Shown: positions 17,451-40,056 of the stretch, in pieces
How the letters are laid out: the number at the start of each line of letters is the position of its first letter
Position numbering within the stretch: the stretch's first letter is position 1
Assembly (NCBI GenBank): GCA_027491435.1
Contig: JAOZFG010000036.1
Location: forward strand, 1 to 41,254
Source: Thermoproteota archaeon
GTDB lineage: Archaea > Korarchaeota > Korarchaeia > Korarchaeales > Korarchaeaceae
Direction of reading: 5' to 3'
Length of the DNA: 41,254 bases
Made by a program: the position numbers and the translations under genes
The notes under the pieces: model-generated
What the model saw: only the letters and a program-made list of their open reading frames with translations
Told to the model about the DNA's origin: nothing
The model's database searches: none

Positions 17451-20400
17451 CTATTTACCTCCTTCCTGCCACCAGAGCGGGCAGTACCCGGGCGGGTCCA
17501 CCCCCACTGTGAAGGCCTCAGTCAAGTTGTAGTTTGAGGTCCCGCAGGCAGTAGAGGAGAGTTGGTACCTTATCACGACGGTGTCGGTAGGATCTCCTGC
17601 CGGCCCCAGTGAAATTAGCCACCAGACCACCTGTCCAGAGCTTCCGGACGCTGGAGGATTGGAGTTAATTAACTCGGTTCCGTAGGGAATCACGTCATAG
17701 ACCTTTATGTAAGCTGGAGAGTCCACCAAGTTCATTACGGTTATCGTGACGTTGTTGACGCAGGGGTCGTCCTCGTAAACCTCCTTCATGACCTTAACCC
17801 CGCTGACGTAAGTTATCACCTGGGCGTCAGGCCCGAACTCTGAGGTCCCATAGCCGTCTAGGGTTGTGGTCCCAGTTATCCAGCTCCCCACGGTTAACCC
17901 GCAGCAGGCCTCAAGCCAGCCTCCAAATTCGCCTTCCGAATCTACGGTTAATTCCCCCAGGTAGTAGACTCCCTCACCGTAGTAGCTGGAGCCCTGTTGA
18001 TTTCCTACCAGGTTATCGCCTCCAGAAGTCCCGTTCACCAGGTAAACGTGCACTTTACCCCCTGCGAAGTTCGAACTTCCGGCCCCTGAACCTTCGACGT
18101 TTACGTAACCCTTAACGTAGACGTGAGTCCCGTTGAAGGCCGCCTGAGTTATCACCGGGTAGTCCACGCCGCCGTTAGGCCCGTCGCTGAGTGAGCCGTC
18201 ATTTGGAGAGACCCCATCCCCGTTGGGGTTTGCCGTTGGTGCGGTCCCGGAGAGGTCCAGGTCTATTCCAAGCTCCGTGTTGTTGAATATGGCGTTCTTA
18301 AGCAAGGTGTTGTTGAGCGTCAGCTTATCGTCCATCCTGGCCACCACTATTCCGTTGGCGTTACCGCTTATCACGTTCCCTAGAACCAGGGAGTGGTTCC
18401 CGAACACCCTTATTCCGCCGTCCTCTCCCTGGTCTGCCACCACTCCGTTATCCGTCACGTTGCAGTACTTGATCACGAACCCGCCCTTGGAGTCCCAGGA
18501 GTCGAAGCCGTAGGCTGCGTTGTGGTGCAGGTAGGAGCAGTACACGGTTACCCCTTCAGCTTCTGTCTCCACCCCTATCCCGTCCTCCACCCCCACTAGT
18601 TGACCGTTGTAGGCCACCTCGCTCTGGTTGACGGTTCCCTTCGCGTAGGGAGTTGAGAAGTGTATGCCCGTCATCCCGTTGTACATCACCAGGGACTGGA
18701 CGACGCTCACGTTGAGCAGGGCTCCCCCTCCCACGTCCTTGACCTCAACCCCGTAGTCCTCATTCCTGAGCAGGGAGCTCCCCTGAGGATCGGAGCCGTC
18801 AGCCCTCGCCCCTATAAGGCAACCTATTATGGACACATTGGTGTAGCCTGAGGCAGGTGGCGTCCTGGAGAAACCAGAGGGGACGAAAATCCCGTCTCCG
18901 TGATCCCCGGAGAAGCCGTATATGGAAAGGTTCATTATCCAGACGTCTGAAGCCTCCACAGTTATTCCGTTGTCCACGCCGTTGCCGTAGATCTCAACTT
19001 CAGGCCCGCTAACTCCGGTAAGGTAGCACTCGTCTCCTGACCCCACGATCCCATCTTCGCCAGTTCCCAAGTGGCCTGATGAGCCCAGGGTAGCTGCGTT
19101 GGTGTCGGCTACGTTTTCCGTCTGTGTGCCCCCGTCGAGCACCGTTCCGTCGTCGACTATTGAAGGCAGCGGGCCCAAAGAGGAGTTCAAAGTTATGGTC
19201 CAGTAAGAGCCGGTGAACCCGGGATCAGAGGTTGGGATCCAGAACTGGGACCTGTCTGGCCCTGATAAAGCGTTAGCGTTCACTAAGAACTGCCTTAAGG
19301 TTCCCTGAGCGTACCTAGCGTCAGGGGAGTCGTCTGAGTCCCTAGCGTTTACGATCACCTCGAAGGAGAAGGCGAAGTCAATTCCAGATACTGAGGAGGT
19401 GGCCTCGACCTTGGAGACGTGCTCGTACCTGTTATCGGAAACCGCTAGCGAGGTGTTCCAGAAGTCGCTGACCTGGGGGTTCACCCCTCCCATCTTCTTG
19501 GAGCACGAGAGGGAGCCTGCGTAGTCACAGCCGTAGGTCTGATCTGCCCACACCTGATCCCATGTGTAGCTCGGGTTCAGTGGCCTGGAGCTCCTCACGT
19601 CCCTGGAGTTAACCACCACGAAGTAGGTTCCAGGCCCGGGAATACAGGCGCTGTAGCTCCCGTCCGCTAGGGTGACGGTTAAGCTGGTGAAGGTATCGCC
19701 GTCGTCCAGGAGGCCGTCGCCGTCGTCCTTATATACTCTTATCCCGACGCCCCCAGTTCCGGGTTCCCCGGCCTCCACTACCCCATCCCCATCTAAATCC
19801 TCGTAAATCTTTCCGGAGATTTGGAGGGGGGCCACTTCCTCGGCGCATACCCTGCTAACAGGCGGCGGGTCCACGTACTTAGCTATTGGATAGGCCCCCT
19901 CACTCTCTACAGCTACCCAGAAGACGTCCTCAGTCACGTGCCTAGTCCCCCCTTCATAATCACTGGATGAGTAGACTGAGTGGGTGTAATCCTCCTCCAC
20001 AGCTACCTGAAAGCCAGTAGTGCCCAAGTTCCTGTACCTAAGCTCAGAGTTGTGGCCGCCGTCGTAGCTGCCATACCCAAGTATTAGAATGGGAGCGTTG
20101 TTGAAGGTCTGCGTGAATGACGCTGTATACCAGCCATTGCCAATGCCCCTGACGGCGTCGTACGCTACACCTATCTCGTAGGGGACTGGAGATGGGTCAT
20201 TAGTGAACCTGGGCAACCTCCCTACCCTGGCTTGATCCAGAGCGTCCCTCTGGAAAGCTATCCAGGCCACGGTCTCTGGGGTGGACCTCTGGGCGGAGTT
20301 GTCGTACTCCTCCTCTAAGGCCAGTTGAAATATCCCGTCGTAATCCCTAAGGTAGCGCTCTCTCGTCTTGACGAACCTAGCCTGTTGGGAGATGTCGTTA

Positions 20401-23400
20401 GAAGTCATTGGCTGCGATATGACGATGGGATCGACGGGGTAATCGAGGCTCACCTGAAGGTTTACCCAGACGTTTGAAACCCGGGCCCCTACGGTAGCTG
20501 TGGTCTCGAACTTGTGGGCCTCAATCCTAGTCCCGTCCAAGAACTGGTAGGTGCCCTCGTTCAACACTATGACGCCGACCGTCTCAGATAGATGTACGTT
20601 GTCCCTGAGGCTAGGCTCTATCACCCTAACCTGCATTGATGTGGAGGTCACGTCCCTTATCCTGATAACGGCACTATGTCCCCCGTTATAGCTGAGGAAC
20701 TGGGCCACGATCACGGGGTTCTCATAGGATTTGTAGAAGGTCAGGGCGTCCCAGGTCCAGGTGCTCGGGTCGTTCCCGTCCTCACCCGTAGAGATTGTGT
20801 TGGTTGTGGTCACCTTCCTGAACTCTATGAAGTCCATGGTGGCGTCCATGTCGCTGACCGCTGAAGCCTCTGGGTTGCCGTAGTACATGAACACGGGCAC
20901 TTCCCACCTGGCGTAAAGCCTTGGGACCTTAACCCAGATTACGCTCTCGCCTGAGGTGTCCCATCTCTCAATCCAGTAGTTCAGCTCAACCAGGGAAGAG
21001 GAGGACCAGTCGTACCAGACAAAGCGCAGGTCATCGCCGTTGGCGCTCACCTTGGAGTAGTCGAACCAACTCGAGTCCAGAACCACCCTTATCTGATAAT
21101 CTGAGAGATCCCGCTCGCTGAACACGTTAACAAGTCTCCTGTACTGCCACGAGGAGTCCCACCATCCGGTGACTATGAGCCTGTGCCTCTCGTTGTTCTC
21201 GTCGTTCAAGTCGTTGTAGGGGTTAGAGGTGTCTGGATCTAACAGCCTCGCTGATATGTTGAAAGTCCCTACGACGTATATGGGCTCATCAAACGAGACT
21301 GTAACCTCCACGCTGTCCCCCGCTGGCACTGTAGTGTCCTGATAGCCCTCCCTGAAGCTAGTTTGGTTGTAAACCCTGACTAGAACTCTAACAACGTCTG
21401 AGTCCGTGTCTCCCCAGTTGGTTAAGTTCACCCTAACCTCGGAGATCGCCCCTCCACAGAGGAAGCTCCCGCAGGGCGAGGGCACTTCTATTCCAGTGAC
21501 GTCCACGTCAACCCCTGACGTGACGACCCTAAACGTCTGCACGTCGCTCACCACGTACCCGTTGTCGAAGTCAGGCGGCTGGCCGGCCCAGACCATAAGC
21601 CTGTAGATCCCGTACTGTTCAGCTGTCCAGTCGGCTGTGTAAACGGCGTAATCGGTGTATGAGGTTGAGTAGGTGAAGGTTAAGGTTGTCTGGTTGACCC
21701 AGTCGGCTCCGTTCCACCTCTGAACCACTCCGTACATGGTATTGCCGGCTCCCGACTCAAGGTACTGGCCTACGTCGCTCTGAACCTGGAAGGTGACCGT
21801 ATCCCCCTCGGAGTAAATGGACTCGGGGTAACCGGCGGCGGTGTCGGCTGGCTCAACTATGTTTATCCCGAAGCCCTGGGCCGTACCAACGGAGGCTGAG
21901 GTGATGAACCATTCGGCATCGTCCAACTTGATCCAAGTTTTGTACCAACTATCAGAGTAGTGCCTTATAGTTATTCTAACCTGGGCGTTGCTCCCAGCGT
22001 AATCACTGAGGTTTATTCTAACTAGCCTCCAACCCTCGTCAGAGTAATTCCCGTACCCCAAATAATTCTGATCCCTGCCGAACCCGTAGTAGTTGGTCTC
22101 AGGGTCAACCAGTATGTGCCCATCGTCGTTATCTACGTACTCGGGCCTCACGTTAGTTCCGTTCACGTACACCCTTACGTAGTCGTAGGCGTCATTCTGA
22201 GCCTTGGTGTCCCAACCCTGCAGGCAGAAGTAGAAGTCGAAGTAGCCGCCTGAGGCCGGGACGTAGACCACCCTCTCCACGTAAACTTCTTCATGGACTC
22301 CGGAAGACCCGTCCTCCGAGTTATCCCTGTAGCCCAGCAGGAAGTAATAGTTGCCCGTCCTAGGCGTGTTATCCACGTTGGCAGTTCCGTCGTTGGGGTC
22401 GCTTACGCTTACTGTGGTCCCCTCACCTGAAAGCGGATGAATCTCCCTGTTCTCCCCTCCACCAGTGTTGATGGAGCCTGAGGTCCACCCAGGCGGATTG
22501 ACGTCACCAGGAGAGGAGTGCTCAAAGTTCCCATTGATCACGTTGGTCCAAGCCGGCTTCGCCCCGTTCTCAACTATGTCAAAATAAATGAAGTAGGTGG
22601 CGACGTCGCTCTCGAGTATGAACTTAACTTCCCCCTTACCATCGTTTAACGCGTCCGTGGCCCCCTCGTATATTACATCGTTAAACTCTTGGTAAGTTAG
22701 CAGGTTGCCGTAGACGTCAACCACCCTGACTGAGTTCTCGTCGAAGTCCCCGGTCACGCCGAGGATTTCAAGTAAAGAGTTGAATTTGACGTCCACCTTG
22801 GCAGTCTTCCCCTTCTCAGGGGAGTTAACGGTCACCTCAACCCTGTAGTGCCAGTCGTAGCCAACGCCCACTCCGTCTGGATCCCACCACTTGGGGTCGG
22901 CCAGGCTTATCTCAACGGGGGCTGGGTCCGTGTATATTATCAGGAAGGGCCCCTCGAAGAAGGTTATAGTCCCGGGAGGGGCCTTAACCCTGACCACGGC
23001 CTTATCTTCGGGGACAGCGTAGACTATCCTTATCCACTCGCCACCTGCCTTCTTCGGTATAACCTTCACCGAGTTCCCCGAGTAGACGACCTCAGCAGGG
23101 AAGGAAGACCTCTCGCCCTCGGGGGCCTCTAAGACCTCCTTCACGTACCTCCCATCCCCTAGGCTTATCCAGCCTCTCTCCTTGGGTGGGTTGCTCGCCT
23201 CCCTCACTAAGAGCTTCCATGAGGAGCCTGAGAGGCTAACAGCTCCTATCTCCTTTGGCGGAGGTCTTTCAGGCACCTTTTTGTAAATTACAGTGACCTC
23301 CCCTCCGCCCACCACGTAGGCGACCACCTTATCCCCTAAGGACTTCCAGTGAACTAGGACCCCTCCCTTAACCTGAACGTCCTTTGGGACCCCCTTAACT

Positions 23401-25469
23401 GGAATTACAACCCTGGCGGCTCCCTCGTAATCCAAGGACGCAACCCCCACCCCGACCTTGGCCTTAACCTTTGCAGGGAGCTTCAAGTTGGGCAACCTAA
23501 CCTCCATGACCCTGCTGGCCTCCAAGACGCACCGCTTTAACCTAAGGCCGAACTCGCACAGGTTTACCTTCTGACCCGGGAAGATGAGCAGGTAGGAGTC
23601 TCCTGTTCTCACGTCTAGGAATTGACTGAACACTTTAACCCTCTTCTCCACTCCATCGGCCCTCACGACGACCTCATCGGTAAGGGGAACCATCACTTTC
23701 CCTTTACTGAGTCGGTAGGCCTTCCCCTTGACCAGCACCTCCGCCTCAGTCGGCCCCCTAACGGCCCACCAGGCCTTGACCATCACCTTGTCCCCGACCA
23801 AGGCGGCCACTACGTGTAACTCGTCGACGATGAAGGAGACGGATGCGCCCCCAGCAATTAGCCTGTACTTCCCAGGTTTAAGCCTCAGTTTGGCTATGGA
23901 TTCTCCGTCTCTCCTGTGGAAATTAACCTCCTTCTTTTCGGGCATCAGTACCCCCTTATCAACGGGAGGGGAGGCATGTATCACCACCTCTTCCTGAGCT
24001 AGGTAGACCTCCTTGTCGGTCCAAAGCTCGACCTCAGGCCTGGACACCTCGAAGGATACCTGAACCCCTACCTCCAGCCCCCTCTCGTCAATCACCCTGA
24101 GGCTGCCCCTGTACTTCCCAGGAGGCAGCTCTACGGACCCAACCCCAGATGTCAGGTTAAAGGCCCAAGCCTTCTCTCCAACCTTCAGCTCCGCTGACCC
24201 GTTAACCCCCTTCCCGGTCAGGTAGTCCTTCACCTCCACAGTCAACAGGGGGCCATTAACCCTGTAGCTCACGTTAAGGAAGGTCACCGTGAAGTTCTTC
24301 TCCTCCTTAACTCCGTAGCAGGCTCCAATTACCGTGTAATTCCCCAGTTCCACGGCCTCCTTCAAAGGAAGGCCGAACCTCCAGATCGAACCCTCTCGCT
24401 TAAGCCAGCCCTTTAGCTCCCTTCCGGAGGGAGTTCTAAAAGTTACGTTAGGCTCCCCGTGACACGTGAGCTTCCCCCTTACCTCATCTCCTGGCAGGTA
24501 ATACTTTGACTCCAGCGTTAGGTTCAGGTCGCCGGAGGCGTTGATGGTGAAGGAACCGCTGCCCTGAACCCCGTCCCTGTCCACAACCTCCACCACCGCG
24601 TCGTAACTTCCAGGCGTTAAATTCAGGTTTATGAGGGCCTCTCCAGTGAAGTTGAAGTTTAGCACCTCCCCGTTGACCTTTAAAACCCCCTTGCCCGAGA
24701 CGGGCTCCCCGGTCACGTAGTCCCTAACTCTAATAAGCAAGGAGGGGCCTTTCCGCTCCACGCTCACGTTTAGGGTTGTGTACCAAAATGGGAGGGCAGC
24801 TGACGTGTTCTCCAGGTACGCCTTAATCAAGTACTTCCCCAGAGGGATGGTTTTCAGCCTTACCTTCACCTTCCTCTCAGGCTTAAGCTCTATCGACCCT
24901 AAGGGGGTGAACAGCGTTACCTTCCTGGGTTTCTGGCTGAACTCGACGTCGAAGGATTCCCAGGGATTGAACCTCTCCTTAGGCAAGGTTATGTTGGGCC
25001 CCGCCTCCACCGAAACCTGCTTGCTCGACCTAAGCCCTAAGTATTCGGTAGACACAGTTAGGGTGTGATTTCCGGGCGTTAGGTTTAGTGGAATCCTCCC
25101 TGTGACCCCCTTGTAGAGAAGGGCTCCCCCCTCTAGCACCGTGACGTTGGCCTTGACCTCCCCCTTCGACGTCTCAACCCTGACGTGTAAGTCCCCATCC
25201 CAGCTGACGCTTAAGTTAAGGACCTCAACTGCGAACTCGTACTGAGTTCCGTTCACCACAAGCACGTAGCGGCCTGGCTTCAGGTTACCCAAGGTTACAG
25301 GACAACTCACGTTTAGGGCCTTTCCATCGATCAAAAGGGTTGCGCTGGTGCAATTGACTGGTAAAGTTGATCCAGGAGAAAACACGCCTAGGAATTTTGG
25401 AGGGGCTGAAACTACCGGGTGAGGCGTTAACAGGAGCGTTAGCAGCAGTAACAGGCCCCTCCTCCTCAA
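17451..25469 (-). CDS. Giant secreted mosaic surface protein (Ig-like, CARDB, DUF2341, lectin-like, SdrD-B, beta-helix, DUF11-like)
   Basis: This is a 2672-residue secreted protein. A signal peptide covers about residues 1-22 (basic, poly-Leu, ending VVSA). Three Ig-like units of about 160 residues span about 80-560. An adhesin-like module starts near 870 (YDWHYRVEVTVNSPEKG), then a jelly-roll/CBM-like domain (975-1185), an Ig/PKD-like part, a CARDB-like domain (1310-1430), DUF2341 (1433-1530, WWDSSWQYRRLVNV), three H-type-lectin-like repeats (1560-1865), an SdrD-B-like domain (1880-1955), a right-handed beta-helix with a GTLRQFLVNAN leader (2040-2420), a GPN...NGTSGGD...TSEFG module (2430-2545) and a DUF11-like domain (2546-2636). 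There is no C-terminal membrane span or sorting motif; the end is polar. It starts at TTG 25469 after AGGTGAG, and no ATG precedes the mature part. N-glycosylation sequons are dense, about 20 in the first 450 residues. A role in adhesion or as a cell-surface layer is inferred. Confidence 0.85.
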   Translation of the reverse strand: MRRRGLLLLLTLLLTPHPVVSAPPKFLGVFSPGSTLPVNCTSATLLIDGKALNVSCPVTLGNLKPGRYVLVVNGTQYEFAVEVLNLSVSWDGDLHVRVETSKGEVKANVTVLEGGALLYKGVTGRIPLNLTPGNHTLTVSTEYLGLRSSKQVSVEAGPNITLPKERFNPWESFDVEFSQKPRKVTLFTPLGSIELKPERKVKVRLKTIPLGKYLIKAYLENTSAALPFWYTTLNVSVERKGPSLLIRVRDYVTGEPVSGKGVLKVNGEVLNFNFTGEALINLNLTPGSYDAVVEVVDRDGVQGSGSFTINASGDLNLTLESKYYLPGDEVRGKLTCHGEPNVTFRTPSGRELKGWLKREGSIWRFGLPLKEAVELGNYTVIGACYGVKEEKNFTVTFLNVSYRVNGPLLTVEVKDYLTGKGVNGSAELKVGEKAWAFNLTSGVGSVELPPGKYRGSLRVIDERGLEVGVQVSFEVSRPEVELWTDKEVYLAQEEVVIHASPPVDKGVLMPEKKEVNFHRRDGESIAKLRLKPGKYRLIAGGASVSFIVDELHVVAALVGDKVMVKAWWAVRGPTEAEVLVKGKAYRLSKGKVMVPLTDEVVVRADGVEKRVKVFSQFLDVRTGDSYLLIFPGQKVNLCEFGLRLKRCVLEASRVMEVRLPNLKLPAKVKAKVGVGVASLDYEGAARVVIPVKGVPKDVQVKGGVLVHWKSLGDKVVAYVVGGGEVTVIYKKVPERPPPKEIGAVSLSGSSWKLLVREASNPPKERGWISLGDGRYVKEVLEAPEGERSSFPAEVVYSGNSVKVIPKKAGGEWIRIVYAVPEDKAVVRVKAPPGTITFFEGPFLIIYTDPAPVEISLADPKWWDPDGVGVGYDWHYRVEVTVNSPEKGKTAKVDVKFNSLLEILGVTGDFDENSVRVVDVYGNLLTYQEFNDVIYEGATDALNDGKGEVKFILESDVATYFIYFDIVENGAKPAWTNVINGNFEHSSPGDVNPPGWTSGSINTGGGENREIHPLSGEGTTVSVSDPNDGTANVDNTPRTGNYYFLLGYRDNSEDGSSGVHEEVYVERVVYVPASGGYFDFYFCLQGWDTKAQNDAYDYVRVYVNGTNVRPEYVDNDDGHILVDPETNYYGFGRDQNYLGYGNYSDEGWRLVRINLSDYAGSNAQVRITIRHYSDSWYKTWIKLDDAEWFITSASVGTAQGFGINIVEPADTAAGYPESIYSEGDTVTFQVQSDVGQYLESGAGNTMYGVVQRWNGADWVNQTTLTFTYSTSYTDYAVYTADWTAEQYGIYRLMVWAGQPPDFDNGYVVSDVQTFRVVTSGVDVDVTGIEVPSPCGSFLCGGAISEVRVNLTNWGDTDSDVVRVLVRVYNQTSFREGYQDTTVPAGDSVEVTVSFDEPIYVVGTFNISARLLDPDTSNPYNDLNDENNERHRLIVTGWWDSSWQYRRLVNVFSERDLSDYQIRVVLDSSWFDYSKVSANGDDLRFVWYDWSSSSLVELNYWIERWDTSGESVIWVKVPRLYARWEVPVFMYYGNPEASAVSDMDATMDFIEFRKVTTTNTISTGEDGNDPSTWTWDALTFYKSYENPVIVAQFLSYNGGHSAVIRIRDVTSTSMQVRVIEPSLRDNVHLSETVGVIVLNEGTYQFLDGTRIEAHKFETTATVGARVSNVWVNLQVSLDYPVDPIVISQPMTSNDISQQARFVKTRERYLRDYDGIFQLALEEEYDNSAQRSTPETVAWIAFQRDALDQARVGRLPRFTNDPSPVPYEIGVAYDAVRGIGNGWYTASFTQTFNNAPILILGYGSYDGGHNSELRYRNLGTTGFQVAVEEDYTHSVYSSSDYEGGTRHVTEDVFWVAVESEGAYPIAKYVDPPPVSRVCAEEVAPLQISGKIYEDLDGDGVVEAGEPGTGGVGIRVYKDDGDGLLDDGDTFTSLTVTLADGSYSACIPGPGTYFVVVNSRDVRSSRPLNPSYTWDQVWADQTYGCDYAGSLSCSKKMGGVNPQVSDFWNTSLAVSDNRYEHVSKVEATSSVSGIDFAFSFEVIVNARDSDDSPDARYAQGTLRQFLVNANALSGPDRSQFWIPTSDPGFTGSYWTITLNSSLGPLPSIVDDGTVLDGGTQTENVADTNAATLGSSGHLGTGEDGIVGSGDECYLTGVSGPEVEIYGNGVDNGITVEASDVWIMNLSIYGFSGDHGDGIFVPSGFSRTPPASGYTNVSIIGCLIGARADGSDPQGSSLLRNEDYGVEVKDVGGGALLNVSVVQSLVMYNGMTGIHFSTPYAKGTVNQSEVAYNGQLVGVEDGIGVETEAEGVTVYCSYLHHNAAYGFDSWDSKGGFVIKYCNVTDNGVVADQGEDGGIRVFGNHSLVLGNVISGNANGIVVARMDDKLTLNNTLLKNAIFNNTELGIDLDLSGTAPTANPNGDGVSPNDGSLSDGPNGGVDYPVITQAAFNGTHVYVKGYVNVEGSGAGSSNFAGGKVHVYLVNGTSGGDNLVGNQQGSSYYGEGVYYLGELTVDSEGEFGGWLEACCGLTVGSWITGTTTLDGYGTSEFGPDAQVITYVSGVKVMKEVYEDDPCVNNVTITVMNLVDSPAYIKVYDVIPYGTELINSNPPASGSSGQVVWWLISLGPAGDPTDTVVIRYQLSSTACGTSNYNLTEAFTVGVDPPGYCPLWWQEGGK

Positions 25470-25597: not shown

Positions 25598-25966
25598 TTA
25601 CCCCCCTGCTGCCGAAATAAGCTCGGATTTCCTGGACCTTACCTCCTCCAGAGCCTCTTCTACAGTCTTCCTCCCCACTATTAAGGGGATTTTGCCTGCT
25701 TCCCTGACCCTCAGGTAGTTGGGACCCATCCTGCCGGCTACAAACACGTGAACGTCCTTGAGAAGTTCTGCCACCGCCTTAAATTTCTCCGGATCTCCGT
25801 GCTCCCTCTCCTCAACTAACTTAGCCCTATTTTTCCGCTTCTCCAGAAATGAGAGGGTTCCGTCTTCCTTTAGCTCATATATTAAGAAGAAATCTGAATC
25901 CCCAAAGTGTTCACCGTAAAGCTCTCCTCTTGAATTGACGCCCAAGGCCAGCCTCACGGACTTCAT
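25598..25966 (-). CDS. NifX/NafY-like protein (dinitrogenase FeMo-cofactor biosynthesis fold)
   Basis: This 122-residue single-domain protein has the pattern VRLALGVNSRGELYGEHFGDSDFFLIYEL...HGDPEKFKAVAELLKDVHVFVAGRMGPNYLRV...TVEEALEEV. The EHFG block near the start, the GRMGPN turn and the TVEEALEE helix are characteristic of the NifX/NifB-C-terminal (PF02579) fold. It binds metal clusters or small cofactors in nitrogenase assembly. No nitrogenase gene is nearby, and many archaea carry such stand-alone proteins of unknown role, possibly in metal-cluster handling. ATG 25966 is chosen from the family's N-terminus and the TATA box 26 bases upstream; an upstream in-frame ATG at 26023 would add an unconserved leader. 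Confidence 0.8.
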   Translation of the reverse strand: MKSVRLALGVNSRGELYGEHFGDSDFFLIYELKEDGTLSFLEKRKNRAKLVEEREHGDPEKFKAVAELLKDVHVFVAGRMGPNYLRVREAGKIPLIVGRKTVEEALEEVRSRKSELISAAGG

Positions 25967-25987
25967 ATCATAACTAGGGCCTGGATC

Positions 25988-25996
25988 CTTTAATCC
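25988..25996 (-). promoter_or_regulatory. TATA box of the NifX-like gene
   Basis: On the minus strand this reads GGATTAAAG and is centred 26 bases before ATG 25966, predicting a leaderless transcript and supporting that start. Confidence 0.5.
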
Positions 25997-26023
25997 TTGA
26001 TGTAGCCATTTCCCGCTCGTCAA

Positions 26024-26774: not shown

Positions 26775-26972
26775 GTGGAAGACGTAAGGAGGGGAAGAAG
26801 GAGAAGGTATGCCGTGGCCGCCGCCTTCACGGCCACAGACGTATTTCTGCTCTTCATTGCCATAATGATGCTGTTAGAGAGGATATACCTACCTTTCATG
26901 ATCGTTTTCTGGACCTTCATACTGTTCACCTCCATGGAATCAGTCTTCTTCGGATATGGTTTTACGGGATAG
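26775..26972 (+). CDS. Small two-span membrane protein
   Basis: This 65-residue ORF has a highly basic N-terminus (EDVRRGRRRRY) followed by two membrane segments, about 16-34 (AFTATDVFLLFIAIMML) and 39-56. This is a plausible inside-positive small membrane protein. GTG 26775 is directly preceded by GGAGG, which is too close to act as a normal Shine-Dalgarno. An internal GTG at 26814 would remove the basic head and would fit the GATTTAAAG TATA candidate at about 26752-26760 less well. The end overlaps the convergent ATPase gene by 33 bases. I do not recognise it; it could also be a non-coding frame. Confidence 0.5.
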   Translation: MEDVRRGRRRRYAVAAAFTATDVFLLFIAIMMLLERIYLPFMIVFWTFILFTSMESVFFGYGFTG

Positions 26973-28274
26973 GAGTGTCCTGCCCCCCCTCATCAGGTCC
27001 TCCAAGCCCAGTGCCTTCTCCGCAGGTTCAACGGTCCTACCAACTACCAGATACTCCTTCTCGTATCCTGGAAGCAGGAGCTTACCCTTCTCCTTTAGCC
27101 TATCTAAGATTCTGTCTATCTCCCTCCCGCTCAAGTCAGACCACTTTACCTCGACCAGCAAGGCCCTCTTCAGCTCGTCGTTTATTGCAACCAAGTCGAC
27201 CTCCACGTCCTTGTCCCACCACCTCCCCAAGCGGGTGGGGGTCCAGCTCATTATCTCAGGGAGGAGCTGCCTCACCACTTCCTCGTAAACGGGTCCCAGG
27301 AATTGGTTGTACTCCCTCCTTATAGCTGAGGCCCTTAACAGACCTTGTTCCAGTAGGGATAGGTTGGGGTGGATGAACCTGAACCAGAACCTCAGGAAGT
27401 TGTCAGCCAGGTAGTAGCGCCCCTTCTTGGAACTCCACCTCTCAGTCACGGGCACCTCCCTTCTGACGAGCTCCACCTCCATCAGGTTCCTTAGGTAGGG
27501 CATCAGGTCGGTGTGCCTCATGCCAGCGTAGTCCCTTATCTCCTTAGGCGTCGTCTTCCCGTAAGCTATGGCTTCGAGCACCCTCTTGTATGTGGTTAGC
27601 TCCAGGAACTCGTACCTTAATAGGAAGTCCGCCTCGTCCCTGATGAAGGTGTCCGGCGAAGTGAGCTCCTGATCCAGCCAATCCCAGAAGGGAACCCTCA
27701 CCCTTTTTAGGTAGTAGGGGATGCCGCCGGCAAACCCGTAAACTTCGACAAGCTCCTTCCAGCTTGCCCTGAGGAACCCTTTCAGGTCCTTGAACTTTAG
27801 AGGGGTGACCTTAAGGCTTACAGTCCTCCTGCCGTAGAGGGGGCTCTTGTAGGCCAGCACCTTGTCCTTCATCATAGAAACTGAGGAGCCTAAAATGAAG
27901 AGCTTGGTCCTGCTCCCCTTAAGCTGCAAGTCAACTATCCTCTGGAAGACGCTCAAGATCCTGGGATCCTCCTTTATCATGTTTGGGAACTCATCTATCA
28001 CCACAACCCTATCCTTAAGGAAGGAGAACACGGACTCCCACTCCTCCTTAACGTGCTTCAGCTCTGGGGCGACCCTTGAGGCCGTGTTTATGAAGTGCCT
28101 GACGTTGTCCCCCTCAACCGCAAGGTAGTAAATGTGGTCCGTCCCCTTTAGAGCCTCCAGGATCAGCCTTGTTTTGCCGACCCTCCTCCTTCCGTAGATT
28201 ATCACGAGCTCGAACTCATCTGAGCTGAGCTTCTCCCTGATCAGCTTGAGCTCCCGCTCCCTGTCCACAAACAT
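26940..28274 (-). CDS. Archaeal ATPase (ATPase_2) with DUF234 nuclease-like C-terminus
   Basis: This is a 444-residue protein. The Walker A motif GRRRVGKTR is at residues 28-36, Walker B VVVIDEF at about 90-96 and a sensor strand LFILGSSVS follows. The linker contains a winged helix (about 245-290, KTTPKEIRDYAGMRHTDLMPYLRNLMEVELVRRE). The C-terminal part, with GRWWDKDVEVDLVAIN and LLVEVKWS, is DUF234 with the Asp / Glu-x-Lys signature of PD-(D/E)xK nuclease folds. These STAND-related ATPases are common in thermophilic archaea; roles in defence, transposition or DNA repair have been proposed but not established. It is leaderless by TATA position and stands alone, divergent from the SPL radical SAM operon. 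Confidence 0.88.
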   Translation of the reverse strand: MFVDRERELKLIREKLSSDEFELVIIYGRRRVGKTRLILEALKGTDHIYYLAVEGDNVRHFINTASRVAPELKHVKEEWESVFSFLKDRVVVIDEFPNMIKEDPRILSVFQRIVDLQLKGSRTKLFILGSSVSMMKDKVLAYKSPLYGRRTVSLKVTPLKFKDLKGFLRASWKELVEVYGFAGGIPYYLKRVRVPFWDWLDQELTSPDTFIRDEADFLLRYEFLELTTYKRVLEAIAYGKTTPKEIRDYAGMRHTDLMPYLRNLMEVELVRREVPVTERWSSKKGRYYLADNFLRFWFRFIHPNLSLLEQGLLRASAIRREYNQFLGPVYEEVVRQLLPEIMSWTPTRLGRWWDKDVEVDLVAINDELKRALLVEVKWSDLSGREIDRILDRLKEKGKLLLPGYEKEYLVVGRTVEPAEKALGLEDLMRGGRTLLSRKTISEED

Positions 28275-29500: not shown

Positions 29501-29519
29501 ACCCCGGCTTGAATGGTTG

Positions 29520-30821
29520 ATGGGGTTGGACAGCTTCTTCACGCCAGAATCGATAGTGGTGGTTGGCGCCTCCACTAAGCCGGGAAAGATAGGCCATGAG
29601 GTCCTCAGGAACGTCATCAGGTCTTTTAAGGGGAGGGTTTACGCGGTCAACCCTAGGGCCGATGAGATACTGGGCGTCTCCTCCTACCCCTCGGTGAGGG
29701 AGGCCCCTCCGGCTGAGCTAGCTGTGATAACCCTTCCCGCCAGGGCCGTACCTCAAGCCGTCGAGGAGTGTGGTGAGAAGGGGTGCAAGGCGGCGGTGAT
29801 CATATCTGGGGGATTCGCTGAGCTAGGAGATGAGGGCAAAAGGCTTCAGGATGAGCTGGTCAGGGCTGCCAGGAGGTACGGGATAAGGGTAATAGGCCCC
29901 AACTGCATAGGGGTTTACGCGCCCAGCACCGGGGTGGACACCTCTTTCCAGCCGGTTGAGAGAATGCTGAAGCCGGGAGACGGTAACATAGCGTTCACCA
30001 GTCAGAGCGGCACCTACGCGATAGACTTCCTGGAAAGGTTGGCTTACGAGGGGGTCGGCGTTAGGTACGGGGTTAGCCTGGGCAACAGGGCTGACGTGGA
30101 CGAGGCCGACCTGTTGGAGCACTGGAGCGGGGACGGCTCAGTAAAGGTGGTGGCATCCTACATGGAAACTCTAACTGATGGCAGGAGGCTTTACGAGGCC
30201 GTCAAGGGATTGGGCAAGCCCTTCATAGTGTATAAGTCTGGGAGGACCAGCGAAGGGGCTAGAGCAGCCTCCTCGCACACTGGCAGAGTGGCTGGAAGCT
30301 ACAGGGTCTTTGAGTCCGCCTTAAGGCAGGCCGGCGCCCTGGTGGTTGACTCCTTCATGGAGCTTTATGAGTCCACCAAGGCGGTGTCCCTGGCACCGAG
30401 GCTTAAGGGGAATAAGGCCTTACTCATAACGAACGGAGCTGGTCCCTGCGTCTCCTCCATGGACCTCCTTTACAGGTACGGGTTCACATTCCCTAAAAGC
30501 GACATGGGAAACCCGATAGACCTGACGGGGTCTGCCAGGACCCAGGATTACCTTGAGGCAATGAGGAGGGCTGGGGACTACGATCTGGTGCTGGTTTACG
30601 TGGTCTACCAGGACTCCCCGCTCGAGGAGGAGTTCACCGAGAGGCTTCTGGAGGAGTGGGACGGAGAGAGGCCCCTACTAGTTTACGCTTCAGGGGTAGG
30701 CCCCTACACCATGGAGAAGGTGAGGGCCCTGCACAGGGAGGGGGTGCCCGCCTTCACCACCGCCGAGGGAATTGCCTGGGGGGCCAGGGCCCTTCTCCAC
30801 TTCTCCAAGGGTACGGGTTAA
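29520..30821 (+). CDS. ADP-forming acyl-CoA synthetase alpha subunit (first copy)
   Basis: This 433-residue protein has a CoA-binding Rossmann domain (FFTPESIVVVGASTKPGKIG, then VIGPNCIGVY near 125-133) and a succinyl-CoA-ligase-like flavodoxin region. The phosphorylated histidine is His253 in RAASSHTGRVAGS. The enzyme family converts acyl-CoA, ADP and phosphate to acid, CoA and ATP, conserving energy. It normally pairs with a beta subunit carrying the ATP-grasp domain; no such gene is in the window, so the partner must lie elsewhere. A second alpha-type gene is at 38626. ATG 29520 gives the usual family start; a TTG one codon earlier is in frame. A hairpin follows the stop. Confidence 0.88.
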   Translation: MGLDSFFTPESIVVVGASTKPGKIGHEVLRNVIRSFKGRVYAVNPRADEILGVSSYPSVREAPPAELAVITLPARAVPQAVEECGEKGCKAAVIISGGFAELGDEGKRLQDELVRAARRYGIRVIGPNCIGVYAPSTGVDTSFQPVERMLKPGDGNIAFTSQSGTYAIDFLERLAYEGVGVRYGVSLGNRADVDEADLLEHWSGDGSVKVVASYMETLTDGRRLYEAVKGLGKPFIVYKSGRTSEGARAASSHTGRVAGSYRVFESALRQAGALVVDSFMELYESTKAVSLAPRLKGNKALLITNGAGPCVSSMDLLYRYGFTFPKSDMGNPIDLTGSARTQDYLEAMRRAGDYDLVLVYVVYQDSPLEEEFTERLLEEWDGERPLLVYASGVGPYTMEKVRALHREGVPAFTTAEGIAWGARALLHFSKGTG

Positions 30822-31236
30822 GAAGGGCTTTTCAGGTGAGACTCACCTTATCGGGCACCTAAATCTACCTGACGAAGGCCCTTGGACTTAAAGAAACTTG
30901 ATGAGAGATGGGAGACCAGCCCTTTCATTATATTGAACCTGTTCGACTGTTTCAACTTGAAGGACTCTGAGAGGTGCTCATGAAGGCGTCTAGCCAGCTC
31001 CTGCCCTGAGTGAGAGTTCGATGGACTGCTCACTAGTTAAGAGTCTTAAACTTTGAGTCAGGAAGGTTGCCTCTCCACCTCATGAGAATGAACGCCTGCA
31101 GTCGACGCCTATGCTGGCAGTTTGGTCGATCGAATGAGGCAGTTCCTAGGCCTTTTGCCAGTTACTCTAGGGTATCTCCTAGGGCAGCACCTGTTTGTCC
31201 CCTTAAGCCCATCATCTAGCTTCTTAGAAGTGAGAG
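30822..31236. other. Intergenic stretch with palindrome, hairpin and frame remnants
   Basis: Between the alpha-subunit gene and the convergent flavoprotein gene there are 415 bases without a convincing gene. On the minus strand a frame at 30848-31033 (SHSGQELARRLHEHLSESF...) looks partly protein-like, but has no promoter and no family match that I can see. The plus-strand frame at 31122-31319 overlaps the histidine tail coding region in reverse and is probably a shadow. The region may contain a decayed element. Confidence 0.35.
30823..30883. repeat. Nested palindrome and hairpin after the acyl-CoA synthetase gene
   Basis: AGGTGAG-A-CTCACCT is a perfect palindrome at 30834-30848. An outer pair, AAGGGC (30823-30828) and GCCCTT (30878-30883), could enclose it. 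It starts two bases after the stop codon. A terminator or RNA-stabilising structure is the simplest reading; the foot of a lost mobile element is an alternative. Confidence 0.4.
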
Positions 31237-32697
31237 CTAATGGTGATGACCGTGATGGTGATGATCTATCAGCCCCAGATGATGGGCCAGCACGTGGTGG
31301 TAGCTGTGAACGTCCATAAGGGACTGGAAGGCCCTCTCCACCACCTCGCTTAGGGCCGGGTGTATGTGCATCCCGCTGACTATGGGATACAGGGTCGGGT
31401 CCCTGGAGTACATTAGGGCTATTACCTCGTGTATCAGTATTGAGGCGTGCGGTCCAACTATGTGAGCTCCCAGTATGGTGCCCGTGGCCCCGTCCACTAT
31501 CACCTTGACGAAGTAGTCCTTGGCGTCCATCGCCAGGCCCTTGGCGGTGTCCTCATACCTGTAGAACCCTATCAGAACCCTGTCGGCCCCCAACGCCTTT
31601 AAGGCCTCTTCCTCTTTCATCCCGACGCTGGCCACCTCAGGGTGTATGAACACCGCGTGGGGTACTGCGTGGTAGCTCATCTTAACCTTCTTTCCCAGTA
31701 TAGCGTTGTAGTAGATTATCTTGGACTCGTAGTTGGCCACGTGCTTGAACAAGTACTTCCCGTTGGCGTCGCCGCAAGAGTAGATGCCGGGGACGTTGGT
31801 TTCCATGTACTCGTTTACCTTTATCCAGCCCTCCCCCCAGGTCTCTATCCCCCCCTTCTCCGGCTTCAGTATGTCGGAGTTGGGAGCCCTGCCGGCGGCT
31901 ATCAGCACCTCATCGCCTTCAAAAGAGACCTTCTCGCCGGTAGCCCTGTTAACTGCTATCACCTCCTTAACCCCGTTTCTCTCCCTGAGCTCAACCACCT
32001 CGTGGTTGGTGAATATGTCAAGCTGCTGACTAAGGTGCTTCTTGGCTATGAAGGAAATCTCTTCCTCCTCCTGGGGGAGGAATTGGGGATTCCTGCCAAC
32101 TATCGTCACGTCTGAGCCCATGGAGGAGAAGAAGTACCCGAACTCCGCCGCTATGTAGCCGCCCCCCACTATCACAAGCTTCTGGGGGAGCTCATCTATG
32201 TGGAATATGGTGTCGCTTGTGTGGTACCTGACGGAGTCAATCCCCTTTATGGGAGGTATTTTGGGCTTTGAGCCCGAGCACACTAGTATCAGCTTAGACT
32301 CGATCAGCTTATCCCCAACCTTGATGGTGTAGGGGGCCACGAACTCGGCCACTTCAGGGTAGTAATCTATGTTGGGCGAGCTGGAGAGGCCCCTCCTTAT
32401 CATCTCTATGTCCTCCCTGATTAGGGAGCGCATCCTCTCCATAACGGCCTTAAAGTTAACCCCCTTTAGCTCCACGTCTATGTGAAATTTCCTAGCCTCC
32501 TTAACCGATGTGACCATGTCAGCCACGTGCAGCAATATCTTTGATGGTATGCACCCCCTGGTAAGGCAGATGCCGCCTGGCTCGTCCTTGTCTATCACTG
32601 CCACCTTAACGTTAGGGTCCCTATGCAGCAGGGCGTCTATAACGTTCATGGCCGAGCCAGTGCCTATAGCTATAGCATCATACTCTATGACGCTCAT
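31237..32697 (-). CDS. Dihydrolipoamide dehydrogenase-like flavoprotein with polyhistidine tail
   Basis: This is a 486-residue pyridine nucleotide-disulfide oxidoreductase. The FAD-binding AIAIGTGSAM is at the N-terminus, and the redox disulfide GGICLTRGCIPSK has Cys44 and Cys49. The NAD(P)H-binding VIVGGGYIAAEFG is near 193, and MHIHPALSEVVERAF carries the catalytic His-Glu pair of lipoamide dehydrogenases and mercuric reductases. The last 25 residues are histidine-rich, ending DHHHHGHHH, with 11 His among the final 20. That tail and the lack of the C-terminal cysteine pair of mercuric reductase separate it from both classic enzymes. The natural disulfide substrate is unclear, as no lipoyl or E2 gene is near. 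A metal-binding or redox-metal role is inferred from the tail. Probably leaderless. Confidence 0.88.
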   Translation of the reverse strand: MSVIEYDAIAIGTGSAMNVIDALLHRDPNVKVAVIDKDEPGGICLTRGCIPSKILLHVADMVTSVKEARKFHIDVELKGVNFKAVMERMRSLIREDIEMIRRGLSSSPNIDYYPEVAEFVAPYTIKVGDKLIESKLILVCSGSKPKIPPIKGIDSVRYHTSDTIFHIDELPQKLVIVGGGYIAAEFGYFFSSMGSDVTIVGRNPQFLPQEEEEISFIAKKHLSQQLDIFTNHEVVELRERNGVKEVIAVNRATGEKVSFEGDEVLIAAGRAPNSDILKPEKGGIETWGEGWIKVNEYMETNVPGIYSCGDANGKYLFKHVANYESKIIYYNAILGKKVKMSYHAVPHAVFIHPEVASVGMKEEEALKALGADRVLIGFYRYEDTAKGLAMDAKDYFVKVIVDGATGTILGAHIVGPHASILIHEVIALMYSRDPTLYPIVSGMHIHPALSEVVERAFQSLMDVHSYHHVLAHHLGLIDHHHHGHHH

Positions 32698-38625: not shown

Positions 38626-40056
38626 ATGAAGGGGTTCTTCCATCCCAAGTCAGTGGTGATCGTCGGGGCCTCGAGAACCCCCGGGAAGGTGGGCTACGAG
38701 ACCCTGAGGGTAATGGTCGAGAACCAGAGGGCCGGCGCCTTCAAGGGTAAGCTTTACGCCGTTAATCCCAGGTCGGATGAGCCCATATTGGGGGTCCCGA
38801 CCTATAAGTCCGTGTTGGACCTGCCAGAGCCGGCTGACCTGGCCGTAATAGTGGCGCCCGCCAAGTACTGCCCATCAATTCTAGAGGAGTGCGGTAAGAA
38901 GGGGATAAAGAGGGCCATAGTCATCAGTGGGGGCTTCGCTGAGGTAGGAGGTGAGGGGGTCAAGCTCCAGGAGCAACTTAAGGAGGTGGCTGAGAGGTAC
39001 GGGATAAGGGTGATAGGCCCCAACTGCGTAGGGGTGGTGGTCCCGTCGAGCGGAGTTGACACCATGTTCCTCCCAGTACACAAGGACATGGACGGCAAGC
39101 CATTGGAGTCCTCGCCCAGGCCTAAGCCGGGGCACATCTCCCTAATATCCCAGTCAGGGGCCTTTGGAGTTGCCTGCTTGGATTACATGTACGGGGAAGG
39201 CATAGGGCTCGCTAAATTCGTAAGTTATGGGAACAAGGTGGACGTGGACGAGGTCGACGTGCTGGAGTACCTCGCAGTGGACCCTGAGACGAAAGCCATA
39301 CTCATCTACGCCGAGTCAATAGACAGGGGAAGGGAGTTCCTAGAGCTCGCCAAAAAGATAACCAAGGAGAAGCCGATAGTGATCCTCAAGGCTGGGAGGA
39401 CTAGCGCCGGGGCTAAGGCCGCTAGCTCTCATACGGCAGCTTTAGCGGGAAGCGATAAGATCTACGACGCCGCTTTTAAGCAGGCTGGAGTTATAAGGGT
39501 GCTGGACATGGAGGAGCTTTTCGACGTAGCCAAGGCCTTGGTCATGCAACCCCCCGCCAAGGGAGATAGGGTAGCGATATTGACTGACGGGGGAGGGGTA
39601 GGCGTCATGGCCTCCGACGAAGTCGAGTCCCTAGGCCTCAAAATGGCTAAGTTCTCGGAAGAAACCCTGAGCAAGTTACAGGGCCTGAAGGACGAAGGAG
39701 TCATCCCACCAATAGCCGCCATCTGGAACCCAGTTGACTTGACTGGGTCGGCCACCGATGAGTCCTTTACTAAAGCCCTAAGAATACTGCTGGAGGACGA
39801 GAACGTGGACGCCGTGGCAATACTGGCGCTTCATCACGTACCGGGGCTTACCTCTAAATTGCCAGAAAAGCTAGCCTCAATAGCTAAGGAATACGACAAG
39901 CCAGTGGTGGCCATGGACGTCGGCTCTTCTACCTACGCCAGGGCCTTCAGGGAGAAATTTGAGGAGGTTGGAATACCGGCCTACCCAGAACCTGAGAGGG
40001 CCATCAGGGCCATAAAGGGGTTAGTAGAGTTCGGTAAGGTGAAGTATGGCTTCTAA
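38626..40056 (+). CDS. ADP-forming acyl-CoA synthetase alpha subunit (second copy)
   Basis: This 476-residue paralogue of the 29520 gene has the same plan. The CoA-binding start is GFFHPKSVVIVGASRTPGKVG. VIGPNCVGVVVPSSGVDT, SLISQSGAFG and YGNKVDVDEVD follow. The phosphohistidine is His269 in KAASSHTAALAGS, and AIWNPVDLTGSA is near the end. It is about 43 residues longer than the first copy, with an extra loop (PVHKDMDGKPLESSPRP) at 150-166. The two differ too much for a recent duplication, so different acyl-CoA substrates are likely. No ATP-grasp beta subunit is in the window. The start follows AGCGGGGGAGC as a weak ribosome-binding site; a TATA-like TTCTTTAAG lies about 35 bases upstream. 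Confidence 0.9.
   Translation: MKGFFHPKSVVIVGASRTPGKVGYETLRVMVENQRAGAFKGKLYAVNPRSDEPILGVPTYKSVLDLPEPADLAVIVAPAKYCPSILEECGKKGIKRAIVISGGFAEVGGEGVKLQEQLKEVAERYGIRVIGPNCVGVVVPSSGVDTMFLPVHKDMDGKPLESSPRPKPGHISLISQSGAFGVACLDYMYGEGIGLAKFVSYGNKVDVDEVDVLEYLAVDPETKAILIYAESIDRGREFLELAKKITKEKPIVILKAGRTSAGAKAASSHTAALAGSDKIYDAAFKQAGVIRVLDMEELFDVAKALVMQPPAKGDRVAILTDGGGVGVMASDEVESLGLKMAKFSEETLSKLQGLKDEGVIPPIAAIWNPVDLTGSATDESFTKALRILLEDENVDAVAILALHHVPGLTSKLPEKLASIAKEYDKPVVAMDVGSSTYARAFREKFEEVGIPAYPEPERAIRAIKGLVEFGKVKYGF

Follow-up and report, generated by a model that had tools for sequence, protein, structure and literature searches.

The class I flavoprotein disulfide reductase encoded in the DNA analyzed here (a stretch of 41,254 nucleotides, referred to below as the window) ends in a disordered-looking run of histidines, IDHHHHGHHH, that is present in that form in one of 100 aligned homologues, the window protein itself. 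The case is a modest one: the enzyme family is known, the sequence is real, and what is new is the extension in one lineage, a natural "His-tag" that an enzyme has seemingly acquired by the loss of its stop codon and with the help of a short repeat. We lean, with something short of full conviction, toward regarding the extension as a by-product of those two changes on an ordinary archaeal reductase, with no selected role. Ahead of it in the protein lies an older and more widely shared C-terminal helix, which merits more attention than the poly-His run.

The enzyme and its family

The reading frame is single and intact, and its product ends in VHSYHHVLAHHLGLIDHHHHGHHH before the stop codon. The first-pass annotation of this DNA had remarked on the His-rich end, and the count bears it out: His fills 11 of the final 20 positions, whereas over 33 mechanically chosen window ORFs, the reductase ORF included, it accounts for 195 of 12350 residues (1.6%). 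At that background the binomial probability of at least 11 His in 20 positions is close to 2e-15; no other ORF end among the 33 has more than 2. The same annotation had taken the protein for a dihydrolipoamide dehydrogenase-like enzyme that retains its redox disulfide and its His-Glu pair. The class assignment was correct, since NCBIfam, Pfam (Pyr_redox_2 and Pyr_redox_dim domains) and structure matches agree on it, and the catalytic residues are indeed retained: Cys44 and Cys49 (located in GGICLTRGCIPSK) and His446 and Glu451 (in HIHPALSE) are each found in every aligned homologue (Table 1).

The comparison set of 100 proteins contains the window protein, eight same-genus relatives (65-71% identical to it), and proteins of Bathyarchaeota, Methanosarcinaceae and other archaeal lines (rows L009, which is the window, L010-L019, L039-L042, L044-L049, L087-L116, L118-L158 and L180-L187). 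Excluded from it are L043, whose tail duplicates that of L042, L117, which is the gene already present as L019, and L188, truncated by the end of its contig; L020-L022 were kept out as lying outside the family; L157 and L158 were retained though they fall below the NF004947 cut-off, and ten named rows were included without scoring. The NF004947 survey gave 73 matches; G212 and G246 are not among the sequences used. In a tree made by a quick method from 103 rows (the 100 together with L020-L022), the window protein is the deepest and also the longest branch of the genus clade, at 0.35 changes per site.

The reductase belongs, as an unremarkable member, to an archaeal group within the class I flavoprotein disulfide reductases. 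It scores 724.4 bits against NF004947 (cut-off 592); the NCBIfam models for mycothione reductase (two equivalogs, 368.8 vs 501 and 345.2 vs 635.65), classical lipoamide dehydrogenase and MerA (288.7 vs 454.45) all match below their own cut-offs. A structure model of the monomer, built from 15 aligned sequences, has a mean pLDDT of 90.1 and a pTM of 0.89, with weaker blocks at residues 431-440 (pLDDT 68) and 441-450 (pLDDT 67). The nearest solved proteins, by sequence and by fold, are mycothione reductases (Mtr), with 8qcj matching the model at Z 43.0 and rmsd 1.8 over 449 aligned residues (34% identical; TM 0.88 by query). An acidic residue ending the second strand of the NAD fold is the hallmark of NAD-dependent LPD; the window protein has Gly201 there, and Glu occupies that column in 14 of the 100 homologues. 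For Mtr, an excerpt of (PMC10910545) describes a motif, RxxxxxR, whose two Arg serve the 2' phosphate of NADPH: Arg202 of the reductase corresponds to the first, but Pro208 replaces the second. Actinobacterial Mtrs are grouped with a set of archaeal DLDs in that excerpt, so that the kinship of the two is already published. With MerA the reductase shares the fold and the redox pair; it differs in having no C-terminal Cys pair (0 Cys in its last 25 residues). A MerA-like reductase that does end in such a pair, SCCAE, and is 35% identical to the window protein, is encoded in a genome of the same taxonomic family (L022, in G017).

Table 1. Features of the reductase gene and its 3' end, in window coordinates
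Feature	Position	Strand	Remarks
Class I flavoprotein disulfide reductase, 486 aa	31237..32697	-	family NF004947 (PRK06292.2-5 'dihydrolipoyl dehydrogenase')
Redox disulfide Cys44-x4-Cys49 (CLTRGC)	32551..32568	-	Cys at both columns in 100/100 aligned homologues
Gly201-Arg202, end of second NAD(P)-fold strand	32092..32097	-	Gly 72/100, Arg 81/100
His446-Glu451 pair (HPALSE)	31345..31362	-	100/100 at both columns
C-terminal helix, residues 463-473, VHSYHHVLAHH, older shared part	31279..31311	-	predicted helix
Window-only extension, residues 477-486, IDHHHHGHHH	31240..31269	-	predicted disordered, pLDDT <50
Direct repeat, 10 nt at 15-nt spacing	31240..31264	-	copies 31240-31249 and 31255-31264, 100% identical
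Inverted repeat, perfect 11-nt arms 31207-31217 / 31277-31287	31207..31287	.	pairs shared-helix codons with 3' flank

The C-terminal helix and the extension beyond it

The His-rich end had been put forward as a single feature. It is better divided into two, of which the helix is older and shared, and the poly-His part is confined, among the 100 aligned proteins, to the window. Model confidence is high in the helix (mean pLDDT 93 for residues 461-470) and drops to 59 for residues 471-480. The archaeal NF004947 homologues (window genus, Bathyarchaeota, Methanosarcinaceae and others) have the same catalytic residues as the window protein, and in 68 of the 100 aligned proteins a Tyr-His step follows downstream of HPxxxE (Tyr-His-His in 26, the window included). 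Relatives in the genus have tails reading ...DHYHHMLEHHLGL, ...DHYHHMLHHLGLE or near variants; a Bathyarchaeota protein ends ...EHYHHLLEHYYKLL, and a protein from family f31 (the family within which the named Methanolobus rows nest) ends ...EHYHHFLKHIGLED. Judged from the alignment, the Tyr-His step of the helix appears to be a family trait that is older than the extension.

The extension, by contrast, appears to be lineage-specific within the 100 homologues aligned. At columns 479-482 and 484-486, which hold its seven His, the window alone has His. The eight same-genus relatives end at LGL or LGLE, with poly-His in none of them, and none of the 91 others has it in that form; the possibility that relatives conserve the tail, which the first-pass annotation wanted checked, is accordingly not borne out, and that annotation had itself proposed that absence from all close relatives would signify slippage. 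Counting His after the HPxxxE motif gives 12 for the window protein and, as the next highest number, 6, in five genus relatives: seven or more are found in the window only (1/100), and 5-6 in six of the eight genus relatives. Two distant members of the family have short, independent His-rich ends of their own (EHHHNTN in L130 and HYHHSH in L109). The pattern CAYCAYCAYCAYNNNCAYCAY occurs once across 16 genus genomes, in the reductase tail, and among the papers listed by literature searches on His-rich tails in DLD, MerA or disulfide reductases, none appeared, judging by the listings, to deal with such a tail.

Origin of the extension and the question of metal

How might such a tail come about? 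Past the shared LGL, the codons of the window gene are ATA GAT CAT CAC CAT CAC GGT CAT CAC CAT TAG; the gene of one genus relative, L015, ends CTG GGG CTG GAA TAG. Fitted by eye, CTGGGGCTG--ATAG of the window lies against CTGGGGCTGGAATAG of L015, and loss of GA from an L015-like GAA TAG would yield CTG GGG CTG ATA G and throw the old TAG out of frame (MAFFT alignment of the junction did not place this proposed 2-nt gap). The ancestral stop after ...GL or ...GLE would, on the likeliest account, have been lost in the window lineage, in the simplest form of the event by dropping GA from GAA TAG, and the frame would then have run into, or grown with, a CAT/CAC repeat to give IDHHHHGHHH. Four of the eight genus relatives end GL-stop, and this allows routes other than GA loss. 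CAT and CAC alternate in the extension codons, which contain the direct repeat of Table 1; Tandem Repeats Finder reported no array over the extension at score 30. Since a CAY repeat specifies His in one of its three frames, the His run could have come by chance. What the analysis shows is the anatomy of the end, its restriction to one of 100 homologues, the repeat and the predicted disorder; which mutation came first, and that no selected function exists, we infer. Some of the evidence pulls the other way: the long branch of the window protein (0.35) means that the event cannot be called recent, so that the extension may be old and retained; the ends of L130 and L109, taken together with the His-rich genus relatives, suggest that such ends may be favored; and selection for metal binding would equally account for the seven His among the ten residues of the extension.

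Two further proposals concerning this DNA were discarded. Derivation of the tail DNA from a mobile or dispersed element found no support: with 31150-31285 as the query against the 16 genus genomes, the only strong match was to itself (next E 0.029). As for RNA structure at the 3' end, the fold z of -3.30 for 31195-31300 belongs to a stretch picked after the inverted repeat had been noticed; on a 120-nt 3'-end stretch (starting 30 nt before the end of the stop codon) z is 0.01 for the window and -2.41 to 1.17 for the eight relatives. The inverted repeat encloses the whole extension.

A poly-His tail chelates Ni or Zn, as purification tags do, and HypB and SlyD are nickel proteins with His-rich tails. 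By analogy with any His-tag, the extension should bind divalent metal (Ni, Zn) in vitro; it is probably without a dedicated function. The stronger proposal, that poly-His is a selected, UreE-like metal buffer or sink, with loosely bound Ni, Co, Zn or Cu kept away from the redox thiols or stored, strikes us as unlikely. Its attractions are a His composition far past chance and the fact that the extension lengthens an end already His-rich across the genus, but poly-His in this form is missing from the 99 other aligned homologues, the His-run pattern has no second match in the genome, and no obvious metal transporter or regulator turned up in a Pfam scan of nine window ORFs (though a small protein of PF02579, the dinitrogenase iron-molybdenum cofactor family, is encoded at 25598-26023, about 5 kb from the gene). 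The metal sink that the first-pass annotation had in mind consequently draws no support from conservation, poly-His being found in 0/8 same-genus proteins and 1/100 homologues. The tails of UreE, HypB and SlyD, moreover, are borne by metallochaperones, whereas the one found here, in a single genome, is attached to a redox enzyme. The closest parallel is to UreE: an excerpt of (PMC13044922) describes flexible His tails that vary in length between homologues and raise nickel capacity yet are largely dispensable for urease activation, and reports higher Ni binding by UreE carrying ten His at its C terminus than by a truncated form. Because UreE tails vary between homologues too, the missing conservation makes metal storage less likely here rather than refuting it. 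That the extension is an artefact of assembly or sequencing, a false small deletion making the 3' flank look coded, is very unlikely: the stop is one small indel away on the by-eye reading, the source assembly is in 43 contigs and a single genome carries the extension, but the proposed gap lies outside any homopolymer, and the new frame terminates after seven His codons.

The older helix invites a different sort of speculation, namely that it functions within the partner subunit's active site, at the place of the MerA Cys pair, and that the extension merely adds to it. Tyr466 and His467 are kept in 74 and 68 of the 100 homologues, respectively; Tyr466-His467-His468 lie 19-21 residues past the Pro of HPxxxE, and the Cys pair of the SCCAE-ending reductase lies 22-23 past it. 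For the 50 solved relatives listed, alignment to the model stops somewhere between residues 457 and 469, and in 43 of them no later than 462, so that the Tyr-His stretch is scarcely represented in them and structure comparison beyond residue 462 barely tests the region. The helix is one of the more useful by-products of the analysis. The prediction, moreover, is of a monomer only and does not give the place of the helix relative to the partner, and Tyr-His after the motif is missing in 32 of the 100. On this evidence a part in the partner active site is distinctly improbable. It is hardly credible that, in addition, the helix reaches that site and holds metal there as the MerA Cys pair holds mercury, with the poly-His of this species as a high-capacity relay; if true, the enzyme would either reduce a metal ion bound there or be gated by it. 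The by-product of stop loss and repeat remains the reading that we prefer for the extension.

Substrate and gene neighborhood

On the family pattern, NAD(P)H would reduce FAD and FAD would reduce Cys44-Cys49; the dithiol would then reduce a disulfide, either small or protein-bound, and the partner subunit would supply His446'-Glu451' as the proton relay. Lipoyl-GcvH is one candidate for the substrate in the window genus. GcvH and GcvP are both found in the window genome (G000), which also gives a PF03099 match; over the 16 genus genomes, GcvP is found in all 16, GcvH in 15 (the exception is 63% complete), PF03099 in 11, and NF004947 over its cut-off in nine. Four of the seven genomes that lack the enzyme are at least 96% complete, so that its absence is firm in these four; the other three are 63-78% complete. 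All seven carry GcvP, and the disparity (16/16 vs 9/16) indicates that glycine cleavage is independent of the reductase.

Carriers of the enzyme point in the same direction. There is no GDC-P match in G057, G071, G083 or G290, and a weak one, below cut-off, in G029; G057, the one genome of the four that was searched for GcvH, has no match to it. PF03099 matches are present in all four, but these could be biotin proteins, just as the Biotin_lipoyl (PF00364) matches in G057 and Methanosarcina acetivorans may be biotin carriers. M. acetivorans, a named control, passes the NF004947 cut-off and matches neither GCV_H nor GDC-P, which makes the lipoamide name weak as a statement of general role. Korarchaeum cryptofilum, whose genus may be that of the window, is described, in an excerpt of (PMC3904984), as having no lipoylation and OADHC genes. 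In the window genome, GcvP halves and GcvH lie close together on contig C10 (80802-83083 and 89777-90163), and none of the genome's 20 PF07992 matches is on that contig. A motif scan of the best eight of the 20 found CxxxxC absent in seven non-window loci (its glycine filter missed the window's own PF07992 locus). The reductase could thus serve GcvH in the window species, but GcvH is unlikely to be the general partner of the enzyme. The other of the more useful by-products is that M. acetivorans and G057 carry an archaeal "dihydrolipoamide dehydrogenase" while matching neither GcvH nor GcvP, which puts the substrate there in question.

Neighboring genes, as many as five ORFs per side, were compared by eye from how each ORF begins, in the window, in seven regions of relatives (L160-L166) and in L017, L042, L046 and L049. 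A metal connection through gene neighbors was dropped: the ORFs that flank the gene in the window are not beside it in the relatives compared, with one ATPase-like exception. In L160 and L161 the ORF adjoining the gene starts like the PF01637 protein of the window (26940-28274), which lies four ORFs away from the reductase. Within the genus some neighbors are shared (L017, L160-L162), as are some in the Bathyarchaeota pair L042 and L049. Elsewhere in the window, a 2672-aa ORF occupies 17451-25469 on the minus strand, and two separate CoA-binding or succinyl-CoA-ligase-like proteins are encoded at 29517-30821 and 38626-40056.
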